Assembly: GCA_947072565.1 (NCBI GenBank)
Contig: CAMTIM010000046.1
Coordinates: 1 to 64,000 of the forward strand
Origin: an uncultured Peptostreptococcaceae bacterium
GTDB taxonomy: Bacteria; Bacillota; Clostridia; Peptostreptococcales; Peptostreptococcaceae
Direction: 5' to 3'
Length of the DNA stretch: 64,000 nt
Part shown: positions 8,325 through 28,715 of the stretch, piece after piece
Numbering within the stretch: position 1 is the stretch's first letter
Layout: each line of letters opens with the position of its first letter
Notes under the pieces: model-generated
Databases searched by the model: none
What the model was told of the DNA's origin: nothing
What the model saw: the letters and a program-made list of their open reading frames with translations, nothing else
Translations under genes and position numbers: made by a program

Positions 8325-10388
8325 ATGAACAGTAGCAAAATAAAAAATATACTTTTAACATTATCTATGGTTTCATTAGCTGTTTTGTTAGTAGTAATTC
8401 CTGCTACATTAACACTATATGGAGAACACCAAGGTCTATGGACAAGTTATATGCACGAAGATAAAAAAATATTAGAAAAAGATTTTTATAAAAGTAATGA
8501 CTTTGAATTTAGTATGCTTGGACCAATGTCTTGTTGGATAGCTGATAGTGTAAATAATAGAGGCGAGTCTAAAAAAGAAATTGAAGATATTAAAAAGCAA
8601 TCAAAGATCCGAATAGATAATTTATATAAAAATATGAAATTTTTAGCAATAAATACTAAAGATAATAGTTATTATAGTAATACAAAATATAAAACAGTAG
8701 AAGAATATAAGAAAAATATAGATGAATACCTTGATATAGAAATACATAAAACACCAATGGATAAATCATATAGTAAAGATATAAATGGAAAAGTAGTAAA
8801 AAATGGTGCTGGCGTAGAATACAAGCTATTAAGTGCGATAGATGGTGAAAATATGGATATATATATATCATTACCTAATCCTAAAGAATTTAAATACGAT
8901 GATGCCATATATAAGTTTTATAATTCTTACACACAAATAACAAAAGTTGTAGAAAATCTTATAGCTATAGTTATTACAAGTTTAGCAGTATTTTTAATAT
9001 CAATATTTTCTTATAAATTTTGTAAGAAGAATACTCCGAATAAACAGGGAATAATACTTAAAATTTCAAAGAAAATACCGCTAGAATTATGGTTTATGGG
9101 TATATTTATTGTAGCTATTTATTATATGCTTGTTTCATTTTCAGGATTATATAGTGGATACGGAGAGATATATGAGTATGTAGGTATGATGTCACTTGCT
9201 ATTATTGGCAATTTAATATTTATATTTATGATACATCTATTTATAAAAGTATTATTTAGTTTTGATAGTAAATTAGACTTGTTAAAAAATACTATAATAT
9301 ATAAACTATATAAATTATTAAATAAAATATATAAGGTAATTAAAAAGAATGTGGAAACTGTTCTAATTTCATCTAAGAAAATACCATTAATAAAAAGGAT
9401 AATAGGGTTATCTATATTGTTTAGTATTTGCAGCATAATTTTAGGATTATTTATAGATTCGATTTTATACGCTGGAGGAATTATTTTTATAATAACTCCA
9501 TTTATAGCTATGGGAATATTTACATGGTACATAGTTAAACAATTAACTTACTTATCTAAAATAATGGATGGAACAGAAAAAATAAAAAATGGGGAATTAA
9601 ATTATAAGATAGATACAAATGGTTATGATAATTTTACAGTTCTTGCAGAAAATATAAACAATATTGGAGATGGACTAGAAAAATCAATAGATAGCCAATT
9701 AAGAAGTGAAAGAATGAAGTCTGAACTTATAACTAATGTAAGTCATGATTTAAAAACACCTTTGACTTCCATAATAAATTATGTGGAACTTATCAAAAAA
9801 GAAGAAAATATCCAACCAGAATATATAAATGAATATGTAAATGTATTAGAAGCTAAAGGTAGGAGACTAAAAGCCTTAATAGAAGATTTATTTGAAGCTA
9901 GTAAGGCTAGTAGTGGTAATATTGAATTAAATATGGAAAAATTAGATATAAAGCAACTATTGAGACAAAGTATAGGTGAAATGGAAGAAAAATTAGGAAA
10001 TGCAAACTTAGACTTAAAGTTAAATATGCTAGATGATAAAGTATATATATATGCTGATGGAAGAAGAATGTATAGAGTATTTGAAAATCTTTTATCCAAT
10101 ATAGCAAAATATTCTCTGCACAATACTAGAGTATATATAGATTTAGTTGAAAATAATGAAAATATAAAAATTACTATGAAAAATATATCATCTTATGAAC
10201 TTAATTTTGATGTAGATGAAATAACAGAAAGGTTTAAAAGGTCTGATGAATCTAGAAATACAGAAGGTAGTGGGTTAGGTCTTGCTATTGCTAAGGACTT
10301 AGTTAAAATCCAAGGTGGGAAGTTTGATATTGAGATTGATGGAGACCTATTTAAGGCAACTTTAGAATTTAAAAGCATAACAAAATAA
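8325..10388 (+). CDS. Membrane sensor histidine kinase
   Basis: The 687-residue partner of the upstream response regulator. An N-terminal membrane segment (about 8-32) leads to an extracellular region of about 175 residues. Further membrane segments lie near 208-230, 252-272, 283-306, 357-376 and 380-402. A HAMP-like linker (about 403-455) is followed by the kinase core: phospho-accepting His in NVSHDLKTPLTSI, an N-box-like ENLLSNIAKYSLHN, and the G2 box GSGLGLAIAKDL. The Asn-rich N-box departs a little from consensus and no clear G1 DxGxG is visible (the segment reads MKNISSYEL), which may lower ATP affinity. GATGAGGGAG precedes the ATG. Confidence 0.9.
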   Translation: MNSSKIKNILLTLSMVSLAVLLVVIPATLTLYGEHQGLWTSYMHEDKKILEKDFYKSNDFEFSMLGPMSCWIADSVNNRGESKKEIEDIKKQSKIRIDNLYKNMKFLAINTKDNSYYSNTKYKTVEEYKKNIDEYLDIEIHKTPMDKSYSKDINGKVVKNGAGVEYKLLSAIDGENMDIYISLPNPKEFKYDDAIYKFYNSYTQITKVVENLIAIVITSLAVFLISIFSYKFCKKNTPNKQGIILKISKKIPLELWFMGIFIVAIYYMLVSFSGLYSGYGEIYEYVGMMSLAIIGNLIFIFMIHLFIKVLFSFDSKLDLLKNTIIYKLYKLLNKIYKVIKKNVETVLISSKKIPLIKRIIGLSILFSICSIILGLFIDSILYAGGIIFIITPFIAMGIFTWYIVKQLTYLSKIMDGTEKIKNGELNYKIDTNGYDNFTVLAENINNIGDGLEKSIDSQLRSERMKSELITNVSHDLKTPLTSIINYVELIKKEENIQPEYINEYVNVLEAKGRRLKALIEDLFEASKASSGNIELNMEKLDIKQLLRQSIGEMEEKLGNANLDLKLNMLDDKVYIYADGRRMYRVFENLLSNIAKYSLHNTRVYIDLVENNENIKITMKNISSYELNFDVDEITERFKRSDESRNTEGSGLGLAIAKDLVKIQGGKFDIEIDGDLFKATLEFKSITK

Positions 10389-10533: not shown

Positions 10534-11052
10534 ATGAGCAAAAGAGAAGATTATATAAGTTGGGATGATTACTTTATGGGTATTGCTTTATTAGCAGGCA
10601 AAAGAAGTAAAGACCCAAGCACTCAAGTTGGAGCTTGCATAGTAAGTGCAAATAGCACAGATGGATCAAACAGTAATACTATTTTAAGTGTTGGTTACAA
10701 TGGACTTCCTATTGGTTGTTCTGATGATGAATTTCCATGGGATAATAAAGGAGACTTATTAGAAACTAAGTATCCATTTGTAGTTCACGCAGAGTTAAAT
10801 GCAATTTTAAATGCTAGAGGAAAATCACTACACGGGTCTAAGTTATACGTAGCTTTATTCCCATGTAATGAATGCTGTAAAGCTATTATTCAATCTGGAA
10901 TAAGAGAAGTGATTTTTTTATCAGATAAATATTCACAGACAGATGCAGTTAAAGCATCTAAGAGAATGTTCAGTGCAGCTGGAGTTAAATTAACTCAGCT
11001 AAATCCACAAATTAAAAAAATAGAATTATCTTTAGATATAAATACTATATAG
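10534..11052 (+). CDS. Deoxycytidylate (dCMP) deaminase
   Basis: Zinc enzyme that converts dCMP to dUMP for thymidylate synthesis. The 172 residues contain the deaminase fold with zinc ligands in HAELNAILNA (His and catalytic Glu) and PCNECCKAI (two Cys), and the nucleotide-binding KDPSTQVGACIV. Overall it resembles the ComEB/dCMP deaminase group and lacks any long DNA-uptake extension. I chose the ATG at 10534, because the upstream in-frame ATG at 10516 overlaps the ribosome site GGGAGG. A HAD phosphatase gene follows after 28 bases and is probably co-transcribed; it might act on nucleotides, but that is not shown. Confidence 0.92.
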   Translation: MSKREDYISWDDYFMGIALLAGKRSKDPSTQVGACIVSANSTDGSNSNTILSVGYNGLPIGCSDDEFPWDNKGDLLETKYPFVVHAELNAILNARGKSLHGSKLYVALFPCNECCKAIIQSGIREVIFLSDKYSQTDAVKASKRMFSAAGVKLTQLNPQIKKIELSLDINTI

Positions 11053-21138: not shown

Positions 21139-21239
21139 AAATTGTAAATTAAATTAATATAAAAAATTATATAAATTATGAATTAAAACAATAAAAATGG
21201 TTAATATATTATTACAAAGTTAATTAAGATTAATTTTGT

Positions 21240-21536
21240 ATCTAAACGCACTAGATAAAAGCTAGGCTATAACCTAACCTTTTACTAGTATCTATTGGGT
21301 GTTTAGATGATTAGATATCTATTGATATCGTATTAAATAACTTACCTAAATTAAGACAACCTCATTTTAATTTATGTCTGCTAGCTTATAAGGTTAATTG
21401 CCAATGGGTAACTAAATGCTAGGTAGTAAATGTTATTTAATAAATCGAATAAGAGGTAAAAGCTAATTGTTTAAGGTGCTTTGGTAAAAGACATTAGATT
21501 TGATAGTTATAACTATTAAATTTATTGTCTTTTATT
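21240..21536 (+). ncRNA. Structured RNA of unknown class with its own terminator
   Basis: About 300 bases with no reading frame but many nested helices. TCTAAACGC (21241) pairs with the segment ending TGTTTAGA (21307), and TAGATA with TATCTA inside it. GATATC-TATT-GATATC makes a hairpin at 21314-21329. TATTAAATAAC (21331) pairs perfectly with GTTATTTAATA (21432-21442), enclosing AGACA/TGTCT and CTAGC/GCTAG (around GTTA/TAAC). The element closes with a long AU hairpin (21486-21533) and TTTTATTTTG. A separate promoter for the thiamine leader follows, so this is its own transcript. I could not match it to RNase P, SRP, tmRNA or 6S RNA. The 5' end is approximate. Confidence 0.7.
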
Positions 21537-21550
21537 TTGACGTTTTTTAG

Positions 21551-21578
21551 TTGACAATGGAGATTAAAGTACTATAAT
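21551..21578 (+). promoter_or_regulatory. Sigma-A promoter of the thiamine salvage operon
   Basis: TTGACA at 21551-21556 and TATAAT at 21573-21578, 16-base spacer, about 25 bases before the TPP aptamer. Both boxes are perfect. Confidence 0.88.
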
Positions 21579-21602
21579 GAAAGTATAAAATAAAATAAAA
21601 AT

Positions 21603-21680
21603 AAGCTAGGGGAGCCAATTGGCTGAGAGGATAGACTGACCCTTATACTTGATCTGGATAATGCCAGCGTAGGAAAGCTT
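21603..21680 (+). ncRNA. TPP (thiamine pyrophosphate) riboswitch aptamer
   Basis: Contains the conserved THI-element blocks: GGGGAGCC, GGCTGAGAGGATA, then GACCCTTATACTTGATCTGG and ATAATGCCAGCGTAGGAA. The closing helix is AAGCT (21603) with AGCTT (21680). Binding of TPP would turn off the thiM-tenA-thiT operon through the downstream terminator. Confidence 0.97.
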
Positions 21681-21738
21681 TTATATAAACTTAGAATATG
21701 AATATAACAATATTTAAATTTTAGCTATGTAAATAGAA

Positions 21739-21769
21739 AGCTATACCTAATTAGGTATAGCTTTTTTTA
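21739..21769 (+). terminator. Riboswitch-controlled terminator
   Basis: AGCTATACCTAA pairs perfectly with TTAGGTATAGCT, followed by seven T. The upstream TTAGCTATG can pair with part of the left-arm complement, offering an alternative fold. This is the expression platform of the TPP riboswitch. Confidence 0.9.
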
Positions 21770-21800
21770 TATAAATAAAAGATTATTAGGGGGAATAGAG

Positions 21801-28502: not shown

Positions 28503-28552
28503 GGATAAACGACACACTATAAATAAGTACTCAAAAAAGTACTAAATAGTAT

Positions 28553-28715
28553 ATAATCCCTGTCCTTTTGCCTGAGAGATTGAGCGAAATTGCCTTGCCC
28601 CTTCGGCGCCTATAATAGGTCTCTCCAGAGTTCCCTAAACTTTACAGTCCTACTTATAAAAAAGTACCTGAGAGTGTGACTCCTTCGGTGTGTCATAATT
28701 TGACAACTCTTCTAT
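28553..28715 (-). ncRNA. Tandem glycine riboswitch
   Basis: Read on the minus strand, the first aptamer has CACACCGAAGGAGTCACAC, CTCTCAGGTAC and GGACTG; the second has CTGGAGAGACC, GCGCCGAAGGGGCAAGGC, TCTCTCAGGCAAAAGGACAG. Both copies hold the conserved CCGAAGG...G and CTCAGG...GGAC blocks of the glycine riboswitch. A terminator follows before the AGCS symporter gene, so glycine probably switches expression on, as in the usual tandem class. Confidence 0.94.

Follow-up and report, generated by a model that had tools for sequence, protein, structure and literature searches.

A structured, pseudoknotted noncoding RNA of the Peptostreptococcaceae with a putative forespore-type promoter

Forespore RNAs are few: to our knowledge only a handful have been described, with a mechanism for almost none. 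CsfG, of Bacillus, is a noncoding RNA controlled by sigma F and sigma G and restricted to the forespore; its mRNA targets are given as unknown in the introduction of PMC9147052. Bvs196 (also S357), a 294-nt sporulation sRNA of Bacillus, has a conserved structure, is independently transcribed through forespore sigma factors, and binds mRNA in vitro by base pairing (PMC9147052). ModT, or raiA, is a structured clostridial noncoding RNA tied to sporulation; it is expressed in exponential phase, and yet sporulation is affected (PMC11706538). Multicopy motifs of inconsistent orientation, finally, have been classed as mobile or repeat sequence candidates (MRSCs; PMC11109978). The same 2024 survey, of 50 genomes, names the Peptostreptococcaceae once, for an rpsJ leader.

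In this report, we describe a structured noncoding RNA encoded in a 64,000-nucleotide stretch of DNA (‘the window’) from an uncultured Peptostreptococcaceae bacterium. It is ~320 nt long, lies at about 21214-21537 on the + strand, and belongs to a form that we call ‘type A’. Compared by description, it is similar to Bvs196 in length, conserved structure and apparently independent transcription, and to CsfG in being noncoding; it may share with both a dependence on forespore sigma factors, judging by promoter resemblance. Bvs196 differs in its Bacillus lineage and in its base pairing to mRNA; a scan of genome contigs with one exact core pattern, which diverged homologues can escape, found no match in Bacillus. 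The likeness to ModT lies in structure and in the connection with sporulation; the differences are that the present RNA has no Rfam raiA match and is far narrower in distribution. With MRSCs it shares the occurrence of several copies per genome, but it has its own promoter-like block, a terminator and a covarying, pseudoknotted fold, type A is single-copy, and no association with transposases was seen. A literature search, to which subscription papers were mostly inaccessible, returned no description of such an RNA for Romboutsia, Paraclostridium or Peptostreptococcaceae. We class it as a new family of noncoding RNA, separate from CsfG and Bvs196, that probably works like the known forespore noncoding RNAs.

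Rfam 15 matches only two elements in the window, the TPP riboswitch (21598-21692) and, on the - strand, a glycine riboswitch aptamer (28550-28638; 67.6 bits). Even with permissive filters, nothing credible falls on the RNA within 21140-21800, the best sub-threshold match being let-7 on the terminator hairpin (23.6 bits against a threshold of 53.5). The raiA model stays below its gathering threshold across the window, and finds no match up to E = 10 in 21140-21800, nor up to E = 1 in five homologous loci; those loci match no other family credibly either. A preliminary description, made from the sequence alone, had wavered between a known motif such as raiA and a new RNA, thought 6S, SRP, tmRNA and RNase P a poor fit, and suggested an Rfam scan to settle the matter. 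None of these families matched the RNA, nor did any other. The raiA alternative is thus not supported, the poor fit of the other four is borne out, and the RNA is without a match in Rfam 15.

The sequence folds far more stably than its shuffled versions. The minimum free energy of 21213-21539 (+) is -84.5 kcal/mol, whereas dinucleotide shuffles average -59.0 +/- 4.8 (z -5.4; 0/100 as good); for 21200-21560 the values are -91.7 and -64.2 +/- 4.5 (z -6.1; 0/100 as low). The complementary strand likewise folds well (z -3.9). In the conserved helices, G-U cells greatly outnumber A-C cells (126 versus 8 in type B copies, introduced below, and 74 versus 16 in type A), which points to the + strand as the functional one, although the structure itself had been derived on that strand. 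No open reading frame of at least 30 aa overlaps 21139-21800 on either strand. The start-stop ‘ATGTAA’ in helix P7 of type B was considered as a mini-ORF and rejected: it lies within a hairpin, and is missing from type A. The preliminary description, which gave the span as 21240-21536, was right about the existence of the RNA and the absence of a reading frame, but it placed the start too far downstream; the 5' end lies ~26 nt upstream, at hairpin P0. At least six helices had been counted, three of them long; the computed fold has at least 10, and the long ones are P0 (11 bp, just outside the 21240 start), P1 (10 bp) and the terminator (~22 bp). Also overlooked were P0, the promoter of forespore-like form, the paralogous copies and the pseudoknots, which could not be read from a single sequence. 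The parts of the locus, all on the + strand, are as follows.

21180-21208, +: putative forespore-type promoter, a bipartite block at fixed spacing in 31 unique filtered copies; -35-like GAATT at 21180-21184, 14 nt, then -10-like GGTTAATATA at 21199-21208
21214-21224/21229-21239, +: P0, a 5' hairpin of 11 bp that covaries in types A and B
21240-21308, +: P1 domain, closed by P1 (10 bp, 21240-21249/21299-21308)
21250-21254/21285-21289, 21256-21261/21279-21284 and 21263-21266/21273-21276, +: P1a, P1b and P1c, enclosed by P1
21292-21298, +: 5' strand of pseudoknot PK2, CUAUUGG, between P1a and the 3' strand of P1
21309-21446, +: second domain, closed by helix P2' (21309-21312/21443-21446)
21314-21319/21324-21329 and 21331-21341/21432-21442, +: hairpin P2 and helix P3, in the second domain
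21347-21356/21365-21374, 21381-21385/21418-21422 and 21392-21396/21409-21413, +: helices P4, P5 and P6, in the second domain
21359-21363, +: 5' strand of pseudoknot PK1, ACCUC, in the P4 loop; partner 21453-21457
21401-21407, +: 3' strand of PK2, CCAAUGG, in the 12-nt P6 loop; partner 21292-21298
21453-21457, +: 3' strand of PK1, GAGGU, 3' of the second domain; partner 21359-21363
21483-21537, +: intrinsic-type terminator hairpin, A+U-rich, ~22 bp
21551-21578, +: sigma-A promoter of the TPP leader, outside the RNA; TTGACA-16-TATAAT, 12/12 consensus
21598-21692, +: TPP riboswitch aptamer, a neighbour outside the RNA; 73.4 bits, gathering 54.3

The terminator hairpin was not flagged by our terminator scan because the scan requires three G-C pairs.

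BLAST with the window RNA against 61 genomes gave matches in 26, but only 11 have long matches or recognizable parts of the RNA; in the others, only short sequences rich in A+T matched, most of them from the terminator. A diverged second copy in one genome, used as a query over 71 genomes of the family, led to a multicopy subfamily, ‘type B’. A model of a 103-position core found 44 matches (38 copies, and 6 reverse-strand matches to copies) in 18 of the 71 genomes and 9 of 23 genera. Genomes carry from 1 to 5 copies, the window's own 4, and nhmmer detected a reduced form in an additional genome, G094. A full-length model searched against 391 genomes of the class found copies in the window's own and none in the other 390, which include at least seven other family genomes, these seven being non-carriers by the core model. 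The exact core pattern, run over genome contigs of 84,980 species (as described; the collection may omit the window's own genome), occurs in 11 stretches, a lower bound since the pattern misses some known copies. All are from Peptostreptococcaceae (Romboutsia sedimentorum, R. weinsteinii, Paraclostridium ghonii, [Eubacterium] tenue, Faecalimicrobium dakarense and strain VA2), and as far as searched the family appears confined to that group.

In a tree of 35 copies, 23 of type B form one group (100/100 support) and 12 of type A lie across that branch; the places of G019 and G093 are unsure because their branches are long. This set, also used for P1 and PK2 below, comprises the 38 copies minus three: one from G025 that is mostly N, a degenerate one from G075 (L073:7328-7618), and one from G013 broken by Ns. 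Type A, the window's type, occurs once per genome wherever seen. Type B is dispersed and also tandem (e.g. L064:8553-8883 with 9001-9335, and L070:10266-10599 with 10700-11033), and in genus g12, where five genomes bear the RNA, it is the only type found. Several variants were encountered. A type B copy at L074:6518-7026 (G013) is broken by a run of Ns, with model ranges that overlap on both sides, and is perhaps two collapsed tandem copies. Partial copies at L064:10316-10417 and L067:13110-13205 consist of the last ~100 positions only (P7 and the terminator); one sits at the very end of an SH3/L,D-transpeptidase-like gene (named by eye), and the 3' end of the RNA seems to have been reused in these as a gene terminator. 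L057 carries a reduced RNA—P0, P1 and the 3' hairpins, without the P2-P6 domain—a natural minimal form, and P0 is missing in G087 of genus g2.

Forespore promoters of Bacillus, recognized by sigma F and sigma G, have the form GYATA-N15-GGNNANAHTR. The block upstream of the RNA has the consensus GHATA-N14-GGTTAATATA. A TGG[TCA]TAAT filter kept 33 promoters, 31 of them unique (at least L052, L010 and L053 fail it), and so these eight positions are conserved in part because of the filter; among the 31, the A and T at -16/-15 never vary, 24 have G at -18, and the distance to the -10-like element is 14 nt. Sigma F promoters have a conserved G upstream of the -10 (PMC3789822), and those of spoVT and several genes for small acid-soluble spore proteins (SASPs) are nearer the sigma F form (PMC7438776). 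Across three genomes of the genus, GNATA-N14/15-GGNNAAWWTA has 74 matches versus 52 for a reversed control, a modest enrichment. The 24 sites inspected lie before sspH (in two genomes), spoVT and an alpha/beta SASP gene, the rest before or inside various genes; the same sspH site is listed in the third genome. Because the pattern was designed after SASP promoters had been viewed, the independent evidence comes from sspH and spoVT. All three proteins score above their Pfam cut-offs (SspH 38.9 bits, cut-off 25; SpoVT_C 31.4; SASP 87.1). The stricter GNATA-N14/15-GGTTAATATA matches 11 times in these genomes: at eight type B copies and, once per genome, at sspH.

In genus g2 the block takes another form, GAATA-N15-CATATTATAAT in G087 and something similar in G025. 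This ‘CATA form’ (GAATA-N15-CATA..AT) precedes 12 of 38 SASP genes versus 1 of 158 control genes, and the ‘GG form’ 5 of 38 versus 2 of 158, both forms having been picked after the SASP upstream regions were viewed. The RNA promoters divide into 26 of GG form, 2 of CATA form and 10 of neither, which mostly have another letter for the G that begins the -35 box. Scored with a weight matrix derived solely from the promoters of the RNA, SASP upstream regions did no better than controls (medians 1.7 versus 2.7; Mann-Whitney p 0.72). Two further sites deserve mention. An exact match to the promoter block at G000:C32:17021 is not a copy of the RNA, and at L159 a gene for a lysine-rich protein of 54 aa, with no Pfam match and possibly a new small spore protein, lies downstream of GAATATTAATTGTTTATTTTGGTTAAAATA, 34 nt after a forespore-like promoter.

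The RNA keeps company with SASP genes, which are present in 55 of the 71 family genomes. All carriers (the 18 genomes and G094) have them, and the 16 genomes without SASP genes all lack the RNA; the probability that 19 carriers fall within 55 of 71 is 0.003, relatedness ignored, and by genus the comparison is 9 of 18 SASP-bearing versus 0 of 5 others (p about 0.06). Since 36 of the 55 SASP-bearing genomes are without it (G094 counted as a carrier), it is not a general sporulation gene.

The promoter resemblance makes it likely, in our view, that sigma F and/or sigma G transcribe the RNA in the forespore. Vegetative expression is the main rival on timing: the RNA would be an ordinary sigma-A transcript of vegetative or stationary cells, like ModT or raiA, and its forespore resemblance an accident. 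TATAAT occurs within most type B promoters, making sigma A possible, but the conserved TTGACA-like -35 that might be expected with it is absent, and G-H-A-T-A stands instead at a fixed 14 nt from the -10-like element. The negative matrix test also suits the vegetative reading, as does ModT, whose exponential-phase expression goes with a sporulation effect (PMC11706538), while the change of the g2 block to the very form that is found before SASP genes does not. We regard vegetative expression as possible, though not likely.

RNAalifold consensus structures, from 10 chosen type A and 20 chosen type B sequences, have much the same architecture. With the structure fixed, 94.8% of cells are paired in type A, with 27 double-sided changes versus 14.1 in shuffles (0/500), and 97.7% in type B, with 13 versus 4.9 (0/500); these statistics ignore kinship, and the structures come from the sequences tested. 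In slid controls, pairing drops to 36-46%. When P1 is paired by hand in types A and B together, 225 of 270 cells pair across 27 unique strand pairs, a count that retains the mis-parsed G009 and G029 and two L068 copies one base out of register; shuffles average 183.2 with a maximum of 208, and none of 10000 reaches 225.

Two pseudoknots complete the structure. PK2, a long-range pairing of a kind that the folding programs are unable to display, joins CUAUUGG to CCAAUGG and keeps 6 or 7 of its 7 pairs in 35/35 copies. Its second pair is C-G in 23 copies, U-A in 10 and U-G in 2, its third U-A in 26 and A-U in 9; the 8 unique pairings have 54 of 56 cells paired, a level attained in 29 of 10000 shuffles. 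In type B, PK2 has a competitor in a short local ACC/GGU pairing. PK1, in which CCUC of the P4 loop pairs with GAGG, is weaker (92.5% of cells paired in type A, 90% in type B). It appears as UCUC/GAGA in two orthologous copies and, by eye, as CCUA/UAGG in G019; in G093, also by eye, there is no CCUC at that place. Covariation in relatives, which had been proposed earlier as a check, supports the conserved helices and the long-range pseudoknot in both types against shuffle controls.

Base pairing to other RNAs is the main mechanistic rival. A forespore antisense sRNA would bind the Shine-Dalgarno or coding sequences of spore mRNAs through CCUC, CCAAWRG or other loops, the pseudoknots being alternative states. 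CCUC is indeed complementary to the GAGG of ribosome-binding sites, but both loop motifs are conserved along with their internal partners, and the partners in PK2 co-vary. Bvs196 acts by base pairing (PMC9147052); conservation here, unlike that of a short-seed sRNA, is largely in helices. An antisense role thus seems to us unlikely. That the RNA acts through its fold, with a protein or the translation machinery as its probable binding partner while the spore develops or lies dormant, has in our estimate about an even chance of being correct; we prefer this to simple antisense because the conserved loops are consumed by the two intramolecular pseudoknots.

A mobile or selfish repeat, multiplying by copying and without a cellular role, might also leave several dispersed and tandem copies per genome, and multicopy motifs of inconsistent orientation have been assigned to just such a class (PMC11109978). 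It would hardly be expected to accumulate the compensatory changes that keep this RNA paired, to persist as a single copy (type A, where found), or to occupy several type B loci that different species have in common by their neighbouring genes. A phage or plasmid origin was considered and rejected: no match was found among 50,697 phage records (types A and B) or 72,556 plasmid records (type B as query), nor by a pattern scan of viral contigs (0), and no transposase was recognized beside the copies, their neighbours being read by eye. We consider this reading highly unlikely.

The neighbours of type A vary (names assigned by eye). On the upstream side, genera g1 and g8 have an IscA-like gene and the remaining loci have others. 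The next gene downstream is thiM in g1 and G009, is convergent in G010, G030 and G029, codes for an HD-domain protein in G004 and g14, and is ClpB-like in G019. What the copies have in common is the promoter-like block, the RNA and the terminator, which in type B is a textbook hairpin with a U-run. A cis-acting leader or attenuator of thiM or other downstream genes, suggested by the position of the window copy before the TPP-thiM leader with a terminator at its end, is thus extremely improbable and largely refuted by context, for the downstream genes of the homologues differ and are partly convergent, and the TPP leader has its own promoter. The RNA had been taken earlier for a separate transcript rather than part of the riboswitch, followed by an independent promoter for the TPP leader. 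The 12/12 promoter at 21551-21578 agrees with this, and the unrelated contexts, the promoter-like block, the terminator at 21483-21537 ahead of that promoter, and the homologues away from thiM all point to an RNA outside the TPP leader.

Some neighbours recur. A Cu/Zn superoxide-dismutase-like gene (by eye) lies near type B in g1 (L064:6952-7455, L067:6251-6754 and L076:1138-1641) and also upstream of type A in G014 (L008), perhaps an ancestral neighbourhood. In L009, L053 and L057 (genera g3 and g14), type A is directly upstream of the same HD-domain gene, which we take to be YhaM-like. One type B copy is followed by a gene for a small membrane-like protein (L066:5667-6083), the DNA of which recurs, often as a close doublet, in g17 genomes that lack the RNA.

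Taken together, the comparisons establish, at the level of sequence, a conserved fold, its strand, autonomy from neighbours and multicopy paralogues. The reading that we favour on balance is a trans-acting structured RNA of ~320 nt, transcribed independently in the forespore, and the founder of a new Peptostreptococcaceae family. Sigma F and/or sigma G would transcribe it there, the folded RNA would bind a protein or the translation machinery of the developing or dormant spore, and additional type B copies would raise its dosage. A bolder version, which we think quite unlikely, would make this a forespore-specific, multicopy RNA with two pseudoknots that is stored in the dormant spore and serves a structural role inside it; it might, for example, hold ribosomes or an RNA-binding protein in dormancy and release them at germination. 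Pseudoknotted, structured RNAs of this size in several expressed-looking copies are uncommon, and often go beyond antisense regulators. The promoter, the fold and compensatory mutants make the idea of a forespore RNA directly testable and, if the RNA is forespore-specific, part of the Peptostreptococcaceae would have a dedicated spore RNA.
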